Below are positions 22,230-27,886 of a stretch of 64,000 bases of DNA, in pieces. Source of the stretch: Sphingobacteriales bacterium (GTDB taxonomy: Bacteria; Bacteroidota; Bacteroidia; Chitinophagales; Chitinophagaceae); the NCBI GenBank assembly GCA_004144175.1, contig SEFT01000003.1, forward strand, positions 220,501 to 284,500, given 5' to 3'. The first letter of the stretch is position 1, and the number at the start of each line of letters is the position of its first letter. Below the pieces are notes generated by a model, which made no database searches, was not told the origin of the DNA, and saw only the letters and a list, made by a program, of their open reading frames with translations. The position numbers were made by a program, and so were the translations under genes.

Positions 22230-23579
22230 TTAGAACTTTGTCCAACCTTTCCACCATGTATCGCCTGCACCTACTGCTCCTCTGTAGTTAACAGACGTTA
22301 CAGAACCCTTGCCTACGGTAACAGCGCCCGAAGTAGCTATAGAGCCCGAAGCAGGAGTAGGATCGAAAGATGCACCGGCACCATAAGCCGCAGTCAGGCC
22401 GGCATCAGCAGTGCTCGATTTGATCTCATTCTTCCAGTCAGCATTAGTAAGACGCTCTGTAAGGTTAAAGCCCATGCTTGTAGTACCTGCCGTATCTACT
22501 GATTTACCCATACCTGCAATCACCAAGCCTTTCAGCTCCATTTGACCGTCAATCAGGTTTTGAGCAGCTTTAGATCCATCTACCAGGATACCTGTAGGGT
22601 AACCCATCAGGATAGAGTTAAAGATAGAAGTCCTTGTATTCCTTCTCAGGTGTGCAGCACGTTTAAAATCTTTGTGGATGGTAGTGTTAGCATCTTGCTT
22701 TGGGCCTATCAGCGTAACGTTAGCAAAAACAGGAGCAGTGATCGGAGTTGTTGTAGAACCGCTCGCATCGTTATCTTGCTCAAAACCGTTTGAACCGGAG
22801 ATATCGGCTTTATTAGCGTCACGTACAGCTATCGCAAACTGTACTGTACCACGGTAACCGTTATCGCAATCGAAATCGTCATCCAGACCTTTGTAAGCAA
22901 TGATGTGTTTCAGGTTTACAGTACCACCAAACATTTCGAAAGCATCATCCAGGCCATAAGAGCACTGTACATAATCGATCTGAGTACCGCTACCTACTGC
23001 GCCAAGCGTCAATGAGTTCAATTCTTTATCAGGCTGGAAAGCGTATCCGCCATATTCGATACGCACATACTTCAATACACCTGAGTTGTCGCCATCGTCT
23101 GTACCACCGTACAGGCCATCGCCTGCTGAGTTGTTCACACCACCTTCTATTTCGCCTTCGCCCGGCTTCTGGTTGAAAGAAGCATTGGTAGTCGCTTTAC
23201 CAAGTATTACGATACCACCCCAGTCACCATAAGAAGGAGTGCCTTCGTTTGAAGTAAACACGATCGGATTTTCAGCTGTACCCGAAGCGACTATTTTAGC
23301 ACCACGTGTTACAACCAGTGCATTTTTACCTTTCGCTACTTTGATGATAGCACCCGGCTCAATGGTAAGTGTAGCACCATTTTTTACATACACCATGTTG
23401 GTCATAGTGTAAGTTTTGCCTGAAAGTAATGTTCTGTTAGTCGTAATGTCAGACTTCAATTCATAACCCAGTTGATCTTCAGGAGTTACTACCGGATCCG
23501 GATCTTTGTCTTTTTTGCAGGATACAAATACTGTCGATGTAAGTGCCAGGAAAGAAAGGCCTAATAAAACTTTTCTCAT
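22230..23579 (-). CDS. Outer-membrane-associated lipoprotein with beta-helix-like repeats
   Basis: From the chosen ATG at 23579 the protein has 449 residues, a lipoprotein signal peptide with lipobox TSTVFVSC and a short acidic/Pro linker. The main domain begins with a VKNGATLTIEPGAIIKV motif, as in right-handed parallel beta-helix proteins, and contains repeated strand-turn units (GDWGGIVILGK, LKYVRIEYGG, QIDYVQCSYGLDDAFEMFGG) and Asp/Gly-rich loops. It ends with a WWKGWTKF-type tail. I do not know its function. It lies downstream of a TonB receptor on the same strand, separated by a terminator-like hairpin, so it is likely a surface partner of that receptor (inference). Confidence 0.78.
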   Translation of the reverse strand: MRKVLLGLSFLALTSTVFVSCKKDKDPDPVVTPEDQLGYELKSDITTNRTLLSGKTYTMTNMVYVKNGATLTIEPGAIIKVAKGKNALVVTRGAKIVASGTAENPIVFTSNEGTPSYGDWGGIVILGKATTNASFNQKPGEGEIEGGVNNSAGDGLYGGTDDGDNSGVLKYVRIEYGGYAFQPDKELNSLTLGAVGSGTQIDYVQCSYGLDDAFEMFGGTVNLKHIIAYKGLDDDFDCDNGYRGTVQFAIAVRDANKADISGSNGFEQDNDASGSTTTPITAPVFANVTLIGPKQDANTTIHKDFKRAAHLRRNTRTSIFNSILMGYPTGILVDGSKAAQNLIDGQMELKGLVIAGMGKSVDTAGTTSMGFNLTERLTNADWKNEIKSSTADAGLTAAYGAGASFDPTPASGSIATSGAVTVGKGSVTSVNYRGAVGAGDTWWKGWTKF

Positions 23580-23696
23580 TGTTGTTGAGCTTTTTTTGAT
23601 GATGCAAAAATGCCTGACTAGTATTACCAAATAGTTAAGGGAATATGAACTAACTGTGATGTTTCAACATGCATACATGGTAGGTCCCAAAGCAAA

Positions 23697-23725
23697 AGCG
23701 CCCGGCAAATGCCAGGCGCTTTTTT
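23697..23725 (-). terminator. Hairpin between the TonB receptor and the lipoprotein gene
   Basis: AGCGCCTGGCA-TT-TGCCGGGCGCT on the minus strand with one U-G wobble, 17 bases after the receptor stop codon and followed by TTTGCTTTG. It may attenuate read-through into the lipoprotein gene. The opposite strand has a six-T tail. Confidence 0.65.
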
Positions 23726-23741: not shown

Positions 23742-26513
23742 TTATCTAAAGTTGTACAGGAACGACAATGTGTAGTTGCTACCAGCCCTTCTCGATATAC
23801 GAAGGAAGTCTGCATCTACATCATACTTACCATTTTCGTTTTTATCCTGGTAGTAGTTTGCTCTCTTATTCAACAGGTCGGATATCGTGAACTTGAACTC
23901 TGCCTTTTTGTTCAGCACTTTTTGTGAGATCGTAAAATCTATCACCGGGCGCGGAGCTTCCCATATATGCGGGTTCTGATCATTACCCACCAGGAATATC
24001 CTGCGGCCTACCATGTTAAACAAACCCGTTACACTGGTACCAATTTTCTCTGCATCGTATTGAAGTCCGCCGTTTATTACAAAAGGAGATTGTCCCTGCA
24101 TCGGCCTGTCGGCTTTCACTTCGTTACCTGCTGCATCCTTGATGTTAAATCTCACGTCATTAAAGATGTAGGTACCGTTCGCAAAGGCAGTAAAGTTTTT
24201 AAATGTATTGCCCATAGCATCCAGCTTCTTACGGAACTCTACCTCACCACCGTAGCTTAGCGCATCCGGAGCATTACCATAAGTAAATGAAATAGTGTTA
24301 ACGCCGGACTCATTGAAGAATTGTTCTATGGTGTTGGTAAACTTCTTGTAGAACAGACCGGCAGTGATCATTTCGCCCGCGCGTGGGTAAAACTCATAGC
24401 GCAGGTCCACGTTCATGATCTTTGTGCGCTCCAGGTCGGGGTTACCTTGTACGGCAGCCAGCAGTTCAAAGTCGTAGAATGTAAACGGAGAAAGCTCTCT
24501 AAACTCAGGACGAACTACCGTTTGTGATGCACTCAACCTCCAGTTTGTTTTCTCATTGAAACGGTACGTAAGGTTGAATGATGGCAAGATGTCGCCCACT
24601 TGTGTATTCACATTTACGGGCTGGTTGCTACGGAAACCATTCAGCTGCTGGTTGAAGTACTCATAACGTGCACCCCATACTAACCTGAAATTTTGGCCAA
24701 GCTGGTTATCCAGCATTACGAAACCGGCATGTAACATGCTGTTCGCATCGTAGTCATAGTCTTTGTCACTCAGTTCACTCAGGTTAAAGCCTGTGAGGCT
24801 AACATTTTCAGGAGCAAAGATATTTGCATTGTCAACCGACAGCAGATCAGAAGGATTACCTACCATACCAAACGGCCTTGACGTAAACACACGATCTTTA
24901 ACCTGCGTCATATATCCTACCTTAATAGTATGCTGGTTGCCAAACGCCTGGAATGGACGTGACAGATCGAAGCTACCCAGACCTATATTATCGGTAAGGT
25001 TTGAATAGAAACGGCTTGCCGAACGCAGTGAGGGCTGGAAGCCTTGTATTGTCGCACGGTAGATAGAATCGTCATCAGCCTTACGGTACTCCATACGGCG
25101 CAGGTTAGGCTGGTTTTGATACAGGCGCACGTAGCTACCGTTCCAGTTCAGTTTTATTTTCGATTTTGGCAGGTAGTGTGAACCTATCAACTGCGTAGTA
25201 AGATATTGCGTTGATTTGAAGCCAAGTTGGTAAGATCTTACATCAGCACCGTAGTCATTATCGCGACCTTCGCGCATTAACACGTTGTCAGAACCGTTGA
25301 TGTTATAAAGATTCTTAAGCGATATACGGTTATTCGCGTTCAACTCCATGCTCAGATTGGCAAGTGCGCCCACCAGTACATCTTCACCATAGAGATTCTC
25401 ATTAAAGTCAAGTGTCTTTTGAACTACACCTGCCTGGTTGAAGAAAGAACGCGTCATTTCTGTTCTCCTGTTCTGCTTATTATAATTTACCGCGAAGATG
25501 GCGCCCAATTTTTTACCAAACAGCATGGTGTTCAATCCGCCTGACGCCTGCATAGAAGCATTGATCGGCGTAGATTTCGTGTCGTAGGCCCAGTCGTTCT
25601 TGAAGCCTTTTGCCGCCGCCAGTCTTTGCTCTTCGGTCAGCTTGCGGAACTGGTCTTTATTCGGTACGGTAGAAGGAAGTGCCCTTGTTCCGTCATCCAG
25701 GCCTAAGAAATCAAGGCTACCACCTTTGTAATAATGGAAGTCTCTACCTACAGTTTGTGAGTTAACACCACCACCCAGTTGAATGGTGAAGAAATTTTCA
25801 GACGGGATGTCTTTCGTATTTACTTGTATCAAGCCACCTGCAAACTCACCCGGAAGGTCAGGCGTAGCTGCTTTGTTCACTACTATATTATCGATCATGC
25901 CCGAAGGGAATAGGTCGAAGGAGAATGTTTTACGGTCAGGCTCCGTGCTTGAAAGCAGCGTACCATTCAGGGTAGCCTGGTTATAGCGGTCAGCAAGGCC
26001 GCGAACGATCAGGTACTTACCATCTTGTATAGAAGCAGCAGATACGCGTTTCAGTACCTCACCCGTATTGCGGTCCGGAGACTTCCTGATCGCTTCAGCA
26101 GATACTACCTGCGCTACGGTATTTGTGTTCTTTTGATAAGTGATCATAGCGCTGATGTTTTCTTTTTTCAGCGTTGAGCGCACTACAATTTCCTGAAGTT
26201 GCGTGGATTTTGCTTCGGCAATAACAATATTAACGGTCGCAGTATTATTTCCTGTCACCTTTACATCTGCTACTTCTTTTGATTGATAGCCAACATACCG
26301 TACTTCAAGCGTGTAGGTTCCCGCTGCTGTTTCCAGCAAGAAGTTGCCGTCTACATCGGTAGCGGTACCGTTAGATGTACCTTTTATTACCACCATTGCA
26401 CCGATAATCGGATCACCTGTCTTTTCATCCGACACCTTACCCGTTATCTTTCCAGCTGCAAATGCTTGCAGGGAAATAAATAACATCATAAAAAACATTG
26501 TAATAACGCGCAT
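23742..26513 (-). CDS. TonB-dependent outer-membrane receptor with carboxypeptidase-regulatory-like N-terminus
   Basis: The 923-residue protein has a signal peptide (about 1-20), a CarboxypepD_reg-like domain at about 22-105 (GKITGKVSDEKTGDPIIGAMVVIKG, FLLETAAGTYTLEVRYVGYQ), a plug domain (about 125-240, with GEVLKRVSAASIQDGKYLIVRGLADRYN) and a 22-strand-type barrel ending in NYTLSFLYNFR with a C-terminal aromatic pattern. It is not a SusC protein, and no susD gene is nearby. Substrate is unknown. Upstream, six tandem 11-bp units resembling a Pho box suggest control by phosphate (inference). The lipoprotein gene follows on the same strand. Confidence 0.9.
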   Translation of the reverse strand: MRVITMFFMMLFISLQAFAAGKITGKVSDEKTGDPIIGAMVVIKGTSNGTATDVDGNFLLETAAGTYTLEVRYVGYQSKEVADVKVTGNNTATVNIVIAEAKSTQLQEIVVRSTLKKENISAMITYQKNTNTVAQVVSAEAIRKSPDRNTGEVLKRVSAASIQDGKYLIVRGLADRYNQATLNGTLLSSTEPDRKTFSFDLFPSGMIDNIVVNKAATPDLPGEFAGGLIQVNTKDIPSENFFTIQLGGGVNSQTVGRDFHYYKGGSLDFLGLDDGTRALPSTVPNKDQFRKLTEEQRLAAAKGFKNDWAYDTKSTPINASMQASGGLNTMLFGKKLGAIFAVNYNKQNRRTEMTRSFFNQAGVVQKTLDFNENLYGEDVLVGALANLSMELNANNRISLKNLYNINGSDNVLMREGRDNDYGADVRSYQLGFKSTQYLTTQLIGSHYLPKSKIKLNWNGSYVRLYQNQPNLRRMEYRKADDDSIYRATIQGFQPSLRSASRFYSNLTDNIGLGSFDLSRPFQAFGNQHTIKVGYMTQVKDRVFTSRPFGMVGNPSDLLSVDNANIFAPENVSLTGFNLSELSDKDYDYDANSMLHAGFVMLDNQLGQNFRLVWGARYEYFNQQLNGFRSNQPVNVNTQVGDILPSFNLTYRFNEKTNWRLSASQTVVRPEFRELSPFTFYDFELLAAVQGNPDLERTKIMNVDLRYEFYPRAGEMITAGLFYKKFTNTIEQFFNESGVNTISFTYGNAPDALSYGGEVEFRKKLDAMGNTFKNFTAFANGTYIFNDVRFNIKDAAGNEVKADRPMQGQSPFVINGGLQYDAEKIGTSVTGLFNMVGRRIFLVGNDQNPHIWEAPRPVIDFTISQKVLNKKAEFKFTISDLLNKRANYYQDKNENGKYDVDADFLRISRRAGSNYTLSFLYNFR

Positions 26514-26534: not shown

Positions 26535-26542
26535 CAAAAGTC
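26535..26542 (-). promoter_or_regulatory. Candidate -7 element of the TonB receptor gene
   Basis: GACTTTTG on the minus strand has one mismatch to TAnnTTTG, lies seven bases after the 11-bp repeat array and 21 bases before the ATG. The lack of a -33 box fits an activator-dependent promoter. Confidence 0.35.
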
Positions 26543-26549
26543 CAACTTC

Positions 26550-26615
26550 AATGTTACCGATGTCTTACCGCAATGTTACGCCTGCATGAATTGAATGTTA
26601 AGTCCATATTAACTT
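26550..26615. repeat. Tandem 11-bp direct repeats (Pho-box-like) upstream of the TonB receptor
   Basis: Six consecutive 11-base units begin at 26550, 26561, 26572, 26583, 26594 and 26605. Units 1, 3 and 5 share AATGTTA exactly, and units 1, 2, 3, 5 and 6 keep T at position 3 and TTA at positions 5-7. Read toward the receptor gene, the units are TAACATT-like, similar in spacing and sequence to PhoB/PhoP-type operators. The array ends 37 bases before the receptor ATG. Confidence 0.65.
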
Positions 26616-26676
26616 TGCAATGCGAGCATATTTCGTGTTGTTTTTTTATTATCTAATTGTTATCTGTCGGCCCGCC

Positions 26677-26705
26677 TTTGAAAGTGCGTCTAAAGCCTAA
26701 CTTTG
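26677..26705 (+). promoter_or_regulatory. Promoter of the class III aminotransferase gene
   Basis: TTTG (26677-26680), a 17-base spacer and TAACTTTG (26698-26705) give both consensus elements. The ATG follows after five bases, predicting a leaderless or near-leaderless mRNA. Confidence 0.6.
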
Positions 26706-26710
26706 CCTCA

Positions 26711-27886
26711 ATGAATATCCGTCAGCTCTTCCAGCAACACGTGGCCCAAACGTCGCCTGCGCCAATTGCTTTAAATATTACTTCGGCCTCGGGCAACTAT
26801 TTGTTTGATGATAACGGTAAAAAATATCTCGATCTGATAGGGGGCATCAGCGTATGCAATGTGGGCCATTGCCACCCCAGGGTGGTAGCCGCCATTAAAG
26901 AGCAGGCCGAAAAGTACTTGCACGTAATGGTGTACGGTGAATTGATTCAAAGCCCGCAGGTAGCCTATGCGCAGCTGCTAGCCAAGCACCTGCCCCCATC
27001 GCTGGATTGTGTGTATTTCACCAACTCAGGGGCCGAGGCTACTGATGGTGCCATTAAACTAGCCCGTCGTGCAACCGGCAGACCGGATATCATTAGCTGC
27101 CATAACAGCTACCACGGCGCTACCCTAGGGGCACTTAGCCTGATGGGCGACGAGTACTGGCGCAATGCCTTTCGCCCGCTGATGCCCGGCATTCGGCGAC
27201 ATTATTATAACAGCCCCGAATTAATAGCGGCAATAGATAGTCAGACAGCCTGTGTCATTATCGAGACTGTGCAGGCCGAAGCCGGAGTGATAGAGCCGGA
27301 TATAAAATGGCTGCAACAGCTAAGGGGAAAATGTACGGAGACGGGAACGCTCTTAATATTTGACGAAATACAATGCGGTTTTGGGCGTACAGGTAAGTTG
27401 TGGGGGTTTGAGCACTACGGCGTAATCCCTGACATTGTTCTTTTGGGCAAGGCTCTGGGCGGCGGGATGCCGTTAGGGGCATTTGTATCGTCGCACATGT
27501 ACATGCAAACGCTGACCAATAACCCGGTGCTGGGGCATATTACCACCTTTGGCGGGCATCCGGTGAGCTGTGCCGCAGGTATGGCCGGTATGGAAGCCTT
27601 ACTTGAAGAGCAATTAGGCGAACAAGTGGCAGAAAAAGAACAACTTTTCCATTCTTTGCTTGTTCATCCATCTATAAAGGCAGTACGCAGCAAAGGGCTG
27701 CTAATGGCAATTGAGCTGGAAAGCCCTGACCATGTAATGCAAACTTTGCAGCACTGTTTAGAGAAAGAGCTATTTTTTGACTGGTTTTTATTCGCCCCTA
27801 ACTGTATCCGGATAGCTCCGCCGCTCACTATTACGAAAGACGAGATAAAAGAGGCTTGTAAAATAACACTTGAATGTCTTATATGA
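26711..27886 (+). CDS. Class III aminotransferase (acetylornithine/ornithine aminotransferase-like)
   Basis: The 391-residue PLP enzyme has LDLIGGISVCNVGHCHP near the N-terminus, FTNSGAEATDGAIKLARRATGR, SYHGATLGALSLMG, the Asp-containing LLIFDEIQCGFGRTGKLWGFEHYG and the PLP-lysine motif LLGKALGGGMPLGAF. This is the 4-aminobutyrate/acetylornithine subgroup. No arg or other pathway genes are adjacent, so the substrate stays open. The ATG at 26711 is chosen over the upstream TTG because the promoter's -7 element lies between them. Confidence 0.88.
   Translation: MNIRQLFQQHVAQTSPAPIALNITSASGNYLFDDNGKKYLDLIGGISVCNVGHCHPRVVAAIKEQAEKYLHVMVYGELIQSPQVAYAQLLAKHLPPSLDCVYFTNSGAEATDGAIKLARRATGRPDIISCHNSYHGATLGALSLMGDEYWRNAFRPLMPGIRRHYYNSPELIAAIDSQTACVIIETVQAEAGVIEPDIKWLQQLRGKCTETGTLLIFDEIQCGFGRTGKLWGFEHYGVIPDIVLLGKALGGGMPLGAFVSSHMYMQTLTNNPVLGHITTFGGHPVSCAAGMAGMEALLEEQLGEQVAEKEQLFHSLLVHPSIKAVRSKGLLMAIELESPDHVMQTLQHCLEKELFFDWFLFAPNCIRIAPPLTITKDEIKEACKITLECLI

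Follow-up and report, generated by a model that had tools for sequence, protein, structure and literature searches.

What is the function of the tandem array of 11-bp units that lies upstream of a TonB-dependent receptor gene in a Sphingobacteriales bacterium, and which regulator would bind it? We analysed the array within a window of 64,000 nucleotides, the whole stretch of DNA under study, and in the genome from which the window comes (G000). The initial annotation of the locus had likened the array to a Pho box and proposed that an OmpR-family regulator induces the receptor, possibly under phosphate starvation. The evidence set out below, drawn from sequence comparison, makes it very probable that the array forms the upstream part of a Pho promoter of Bacteroidota type, which PhoB would activate under phosphate starvation.

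The array ends 4 bp before a weak -7 element

The heptamer AATGTTA begins at 26550, 26572 and 26594, in steps of exactly 22 bp as had been noted, and is the sole heptamer in the 64-kb window with three copies at spacing 22; over spacings of 10-44, one further heptamer triple occurs, at spacing 21. Six 11-bp units are in register, which, read toward the receptor (26612-26547, minus strand), are TTAATATGGAC TTAACATTCAA TTCATGCAGGC GTAACATTGCG GTAAGACATCG GTAACATTGAA. The in-between units retain the T..A positions, in agreement with the earlier description of intermediates that keep part of the pattern, and intermediate units of the TTCAT/TTCAC type are also found in other promoters. While the number of units stood, the ends of the array moved by a few bases, since it had been placed at 26550-26615 (Table 1). 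Similarly, a weak -7 element is indeed present, but the gap of seven bases reported before it had been counted from 26550, and counting from the end of the full unit gives four. The -7 consensus of the Bacteroidota is TAnnTTTG (PMC4747536), and the receptor ATG is at 26513.

Table 1. Features of the receptor locus in the window; the promoter score is from the 67-position model described in the text
Feature	Position	Strand	Detail
FII-type (pectin-lyase-fold) lipoprotein gene, 449 aa, partner of the receptor	22230..23579	-	
Shorter second composite promoter before FII	23605..23671	-	TTCATATTCCC TTAACTATTTG GTAATACTAGT + CAGG + CATTTTTG; score 25.0
TonB-dependent receptor gene, 923 aa	23742..26513	-	CarbopepD_reg_2, Plug, OMP_b-brl_3
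-7 element GACTTTTG	26535..26542	-	one mismatch to TAnnTTTG; weak
4-bp spacer GTTG, array to -7 box	26543..26546	-	
Six tandem 11-bp units, predicted PhoB-binding array (three dimer sites)	26547..26612	-	consensus K-TAAYA-N5
Ordinary -7 box TAACTTTG of the divergent aminotransferase gene	26698..26705	+	outside the array
Divergent aminotransferase gene	26711-27886	+	own TTTG at 26676

Because the array is placed between the receptor gene and the divergent aminotransferase gene, and because PhoB is also capable of repression, the array might control the aminotransferase gene, instead of or besides the receptor gene. However, both the units and the -7 box point toward the receptor, the aminotransferase gene has a complete TTTG/TAACTTTG promoter of its own just before its ATG, and the array is retained by receptor homologues whose divergent neighbour differs. 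Control of the aminotransferase gene is thus improbable, and we treat the array as part of the receptor promoter.

The FII lipoprotein encoded next to the receptor has no Pfam match. Its AlphaFold model (pLDDT 92.4) is a beta-strand-rich, helix-like solenoid whose best PDB match is the pectate lyase Pel9A (E 9e-4, with a low TM of 0.35), and the protein is accordingly predicted to be a parallel beta-helix. The FII-type class is defined by a pectin-lyase-like beta-helix and a gene position 3' of a low-Pi TonB receptor (PMC8115612), and the protein fits it by predicted fold and position; among relatives, FII comes after the receptor in 74 of 80 loci. A GC-rich hairpin followed by a run of T's lies between the two genes on the minus strand (approximately 23697-23720); since it separates FII from the receptor gene, FII probably has a transcript of its own, driven by the Pho promoter at 23605-23671. 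Judged by domain content, order and fold rather than by direct alignment, the pair appears to match Fjoh_0545/0546 of Flavobacterium johnsoniae, likewise a receptor (with the same three Pfam domains) and, encoded 3' of it, a lipoprotein with a pectin-lyase fold (FII, IPR011050). The expression of Fjoh_0545/0546 rises under Pi depletion with log2FC of 8.0/9.9, and the pair is inside the PhoBR cluster of F. johnsoniae, whereas phoBR of our genome is on another contig (PMC8115612 for F. johnsoniae).

Register and distance are conserved upstream of receptor relatives

About 110 relatives of the receptor were compared: 30 homologues of the same order and 80 further loci from named genomes. Upstream of the 30 homologues, 103 of 163 TAA[CT]A pairs are separated by multiples of 11, compared to about 15 expected for even spacing and to a mean of 1 (maximum 5) in 300 dinucleotide shuffles. 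The 80 loci yield a similar result, with 235 of 365 core pairs at multiples of 11. Counted from the final core in phase, TTTG is 7, 18, 29 or 40 nt away in 59 of 71 cases; these distances fall in one phase modulo 11 and correspond to a 4-bp spacer before TAnnTTTG. The receptor promoter in the window has no TTTG at the canonical -33 distance, as the initial annotation held, and neither does any of the in-register receptor promoters of relatives that were checked (0/63).

Could the array be a chance or neutral tandem repeat with no regulatory role? Its single units are degenerate, and general repeat finders barely detect it (Tandem Repeats Finder score of only 34). But register, strand and -7 distance are conserved before orthologues across genera although the sequence itself diverges, and G198, a genome of the same genus, keeps all six units and the same spacer distance. 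This conservation, in conjunction with the control on unselected DNA described below, refutes the idea of a neutral repeat, to which we give virtually no weight, and favours a Pho promoter.

The genes around the receptor in other genomes point in the same direction as the promoter. PhoBR is encoded near the receptor-lipoprotein pair in 13 of the 80 loci and DUF47-Pit in 10 of the 80. In a relative that keeps pst (locus L129), the receptor pair adjoins porin O/P and pstSCAB-phoU; here the composite promoter match at pstS is weak (16.1) and that at the adjoining receptor is strong (43.2). One receptor-FII locus with the gene order of Fluviicola (L152) comes from CP034120.1 (L153), a record labelled as the gammaproteobacterium Glaciecola amylolytica; a wrong label or a misleading record name is the probable explanation.

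A composite model finds the same promoter at other phosphate genes

We built a model of 67 positions (five units, 4-bp spacer, -7 box) from 60 receptor promoters of other genera, with the window's own genus excluded. The receptor promoter in the window scores 45.6, a value that is not fully independent, because this promoter is orthologous to those used for training. The maximum over 677,756 background positions, from 17 unselected 20-kb stretches (340 kb) of the same genome, is 10.4. These control stretches were picked blindly and the stretches with pho genes deliberately, and statements about the whole genome combine whole-genome pattern searches with sampled stretches. The case rests mainly on non-orthologous genes, as the scores of phoX, plcP and FII are independent of training. 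Across the 80 loci of relatives, a score of 20 is reached by 67 of 79 receptor promoters, by 28 of 75 FII promoters (absent from training) and by 13 of 358 other genes; among the strongest of these others are porin O/P genes and five genes of plcP-like phosphoesterases (39-42).

The initial annotation had suggested a search for the repeat near pstSCAB, phoU or alkaline phosphatase genes of the same genome, and the composite promoter is found at a phosphatase gene and at plcP. The gene of a PhoX-family phosphatase, with a MauG-like gene after it as in the pair Fjoh_2478/2477, has a promoter that scores 32.8. Since few genomes of the order encode a PhoX homologue (5 of 199), a proper comparison of phoX promoters was limited to G198 of the same genus, in which the promoter scores 35.4 and has a spacer and a GACTTTTG identical to those of our genome. 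The plcP homologue, with an adjoining glycosyltransferase gene, has a promoter that scores 32.4; by comparison, an unrelated non-PlcP metallophosphoesterase scores -13. A second receptor/lipoprotein pair is also marked, with 35.3 for the lipoprotein gene (FII2) and 20.2 for the receptor gene. The spacer is 4 bp in the receptor, phoX, plcP, FII and FII2 promoters, and the receptor, phosphatase, lipid-recycling and uptake genes of this genome share one layout of 4-6 units of 11 bp, exactly 4 bp and the promoter core. Under Pi depletion, F. johnsoniae PhoX-MauG respond with log2FC of 12.5/9.6 and PlcP with 8.6, and both PlcP and glycosyltransferases belong to classes reported as lipid remodelling (PMC8115612).

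A whole-genome pattern search that was blind to gene function matched the upstream regions of FII2, the second receptor, phoB and plcP. With a four-unit pattern we obtained 40 hits, compared to 15 for the reversed control, and the -7 box is needed as well. Three KTAACA units with 3 mismatches allowed discriminated too poorly, giving 52 hits against 34 in the reversed control, and this pattern was set aside.

As in a Pho box, then, the receptor array consists of 11-bp direct repeats with an OmpR-type core, stands in place of the -35/-33 element at a fixed distance from the core promoter (as the TTTG phase and the missing -33 box indicate) and recurs upstream of phosphate-starvation genes of the same genome, namely phoX-mauG, plcP and the second receptor/FII pair. 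The earlier Pho-box reading thus gains support from the promoter shared with phoX and plcP, from the Pi-responsive counterpart in F. johnsoniae and from the TTTAACA core of the Riemerella PhoP motif discussed below.

Other phosphate genes differ. The promoter of phoB has a partial array that is offset by 5 bp and only partly in register. DUF47-Pit was rejected as a Pho-box gene, as the three TTAA units upstream of it in our genome do not keep phase with the -7 box, and relatives have none; the DUF47-Pit transporter operon of relatives lacks the composite promoter, contrary to expectation. The genome has no PhoU hit, no PstB above the curated cut-off and no PhoA, in line with the reported lack of PstSABC in plant-associated Bacteroidetes.

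PhoB is the best candidate to bind the array

Eight OmpR-type regulators are encoded in the genome. One of them, on contig C72, is encoded with a HisKA kinase as a PhoB/PhoR-like pair, and shares 52-55% identity with the PhoB that relatives encode immediately after the receptor, compared to at most 34-35% for the remaining regulators. PhoB models rank first for the C72 regulator and PnpS/PhoR-type models are in the top three for the kinase, in both cases with scores below the curated cut-offs; ‘PhoB’ is therefore the best assignment rather than a formal one.

Other OmpR-family regulators likewise bind 11-bp direct repeats, and one of the eight regulators (L083) matches RprY best, so that a different regulator, for example an RprY-like one, might bind the array in response to another stress, with the phosphate genes included incidentally. 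In addition, Riemerella PhoP, which has an ArcA-like motif, was linked mainly to aerotolerance genes (PMC9603813). Such a regulator would not readily explain why the arrays stand before phoX-mauG, plcP, FII and receptor genes, the counterparts of which in F. johnsoniae are responsive to Pi depletion and reported to be tightly repressed under N and Fe limitation (PMC8115612), or why PhoB is encoded beside the receptor in the 13 loci noted above. We thus consider a different regulator unlikely and PhoB the probable one.

The mechanism we propose is modelled on E. coli, in which PhoB binds head-to-tail, takes over the -35 region and keeps a strict spacing to the core promoter (PMC3348028, PMC10294691), and from this model we infer binding, activation and the phosphate response. 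Under phosphate starvation, the sensor kinase PhoR would phosphorylate PhoB (the C72 pair), and PhoB dimers would bind the 11-bp units head-to-tail, so that six units would accommodate three dimers. With its end exactly 4 bp from the -7 box, the last unit, on the receptor side, would place PhoB at the position of the -33 contact. PhoB could then bring RNA polymerase, carrying the primary sigma factor, to the weak -7 box and turn on the receptor gene, while the smaller copy of the promoter would switch on the adjacent beta-helix lipoprotein. The receptor/FII pair probably scavenges phosphorus at the outer membrane, in a genome that lacks Pst, and the literature suggests organic phosphorus as the transported compound.

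Relation to known Pho boxes

The E. coli Pho box has repeats with an 11-bp period and a TGTCA-type core, and the PhoP boxes of B. subtilis have a TTAACA-like core every 11 bp. In comparison to E. coli, the core here is K-TAAYA-N5, there are 4-6 units where E. coli usually has two, and the Bacteroidota -7 box TAnnTTTG follows after a 4-bp spacer. The B. subtilis boxes resemble the array in both core and period but differ in phylum, sigma factor and -10/-7 element. Within the phylum, the motif obtained by DAP-seq for PhoP of Riemerella anatipestifer has TTTAACA as its most conserved part, similar to the core here, and a mobility shift showed binding; its regulon is linked to aerotolerance and virulence, and the available part of the report describes no 11-bp tandem array or fixed -7 distance (PMC9603813). 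The F. johnsoniae paper does not describe a Pho box (PMC8115612), and in the open literature on a Bacteroidota Pho box we found just the Riemerella motif and a gel shift of B. fragilis PhoB with pstC. The Bacteroidota-type Pho promoter is thus of a known kind; its arrangement of several units and the 4-bp rule, however, do not appear to be described in the open papers that we searched.

We think it reasonably likely that the layout is a phylum-wide Pho code, in which 4-6 K-TAAYA-N5 units are followed by 4 bp (+ n x 11) and TAnnTTTG, and PhoB fully replaces the -33 contact. If so, one could deduce from sequence the phosphorus-scavenging regulon of any genome or metagenome of the Bacteroidota, along with receptor/beta-helix lipoprotein pairs as possible substitutes for Pst. 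Bacteroidota play a major part in the recycling of organic phosphorus in soil, plant roots and water; standard Pst is missing from many of those examined, and the papers found leave their Pho box undefined. The promoter rule distinguishes phosphate genes against a background of hundreds of kilobases and would tie an uncharacterised receptor/lipoprotein pair to PhoB. Which genes make up the phosphorus-scavenging set of the phylum would thereby be answerable from sequence and easily tested in laboratory strains such as F. johnsoniae.

Further matches in the genome

Several additional matches were noted in G000. At C88:72515 (L196, 1489-1555), a score of 26.9 occurs before a gene of the PHA synthase subunit E family (PF09712), which may be due to chance or may tie polyester storage to phosphate starvation. 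The genome's best five-unit array (35.9 on the units alone) is at C78:6072-6131 (L032/L195), between a Porin_O_P-like gene and the gene of a 428-aa secreted protein that has neither a Pfam nor an NCBIfam match; its -7 box is out of the usual register. Five clean in-phase units, TTAACAAACGG ATAACAACTGA ATAACGAACGG CTAACAACCTA CTAACAATTCA, lie without a -7 box at C72:39984-40043 (L038), ∼500 bp before the gene of a T9SS-sorted protein. An array-like match, TATTTTCG, which scores 27.0 at C70:78879 (L033), stands immediately 5' of a histidine kinase gene, which may also belong to the regulon. Finally, near-identical GTAACACTTTAGTAACA stretches occur at C72:80073 and C89:28493 (L002-L004, L034, L035), one of them at a contig end, and probably mark the termini of a repeated element rather than Pho promoters.
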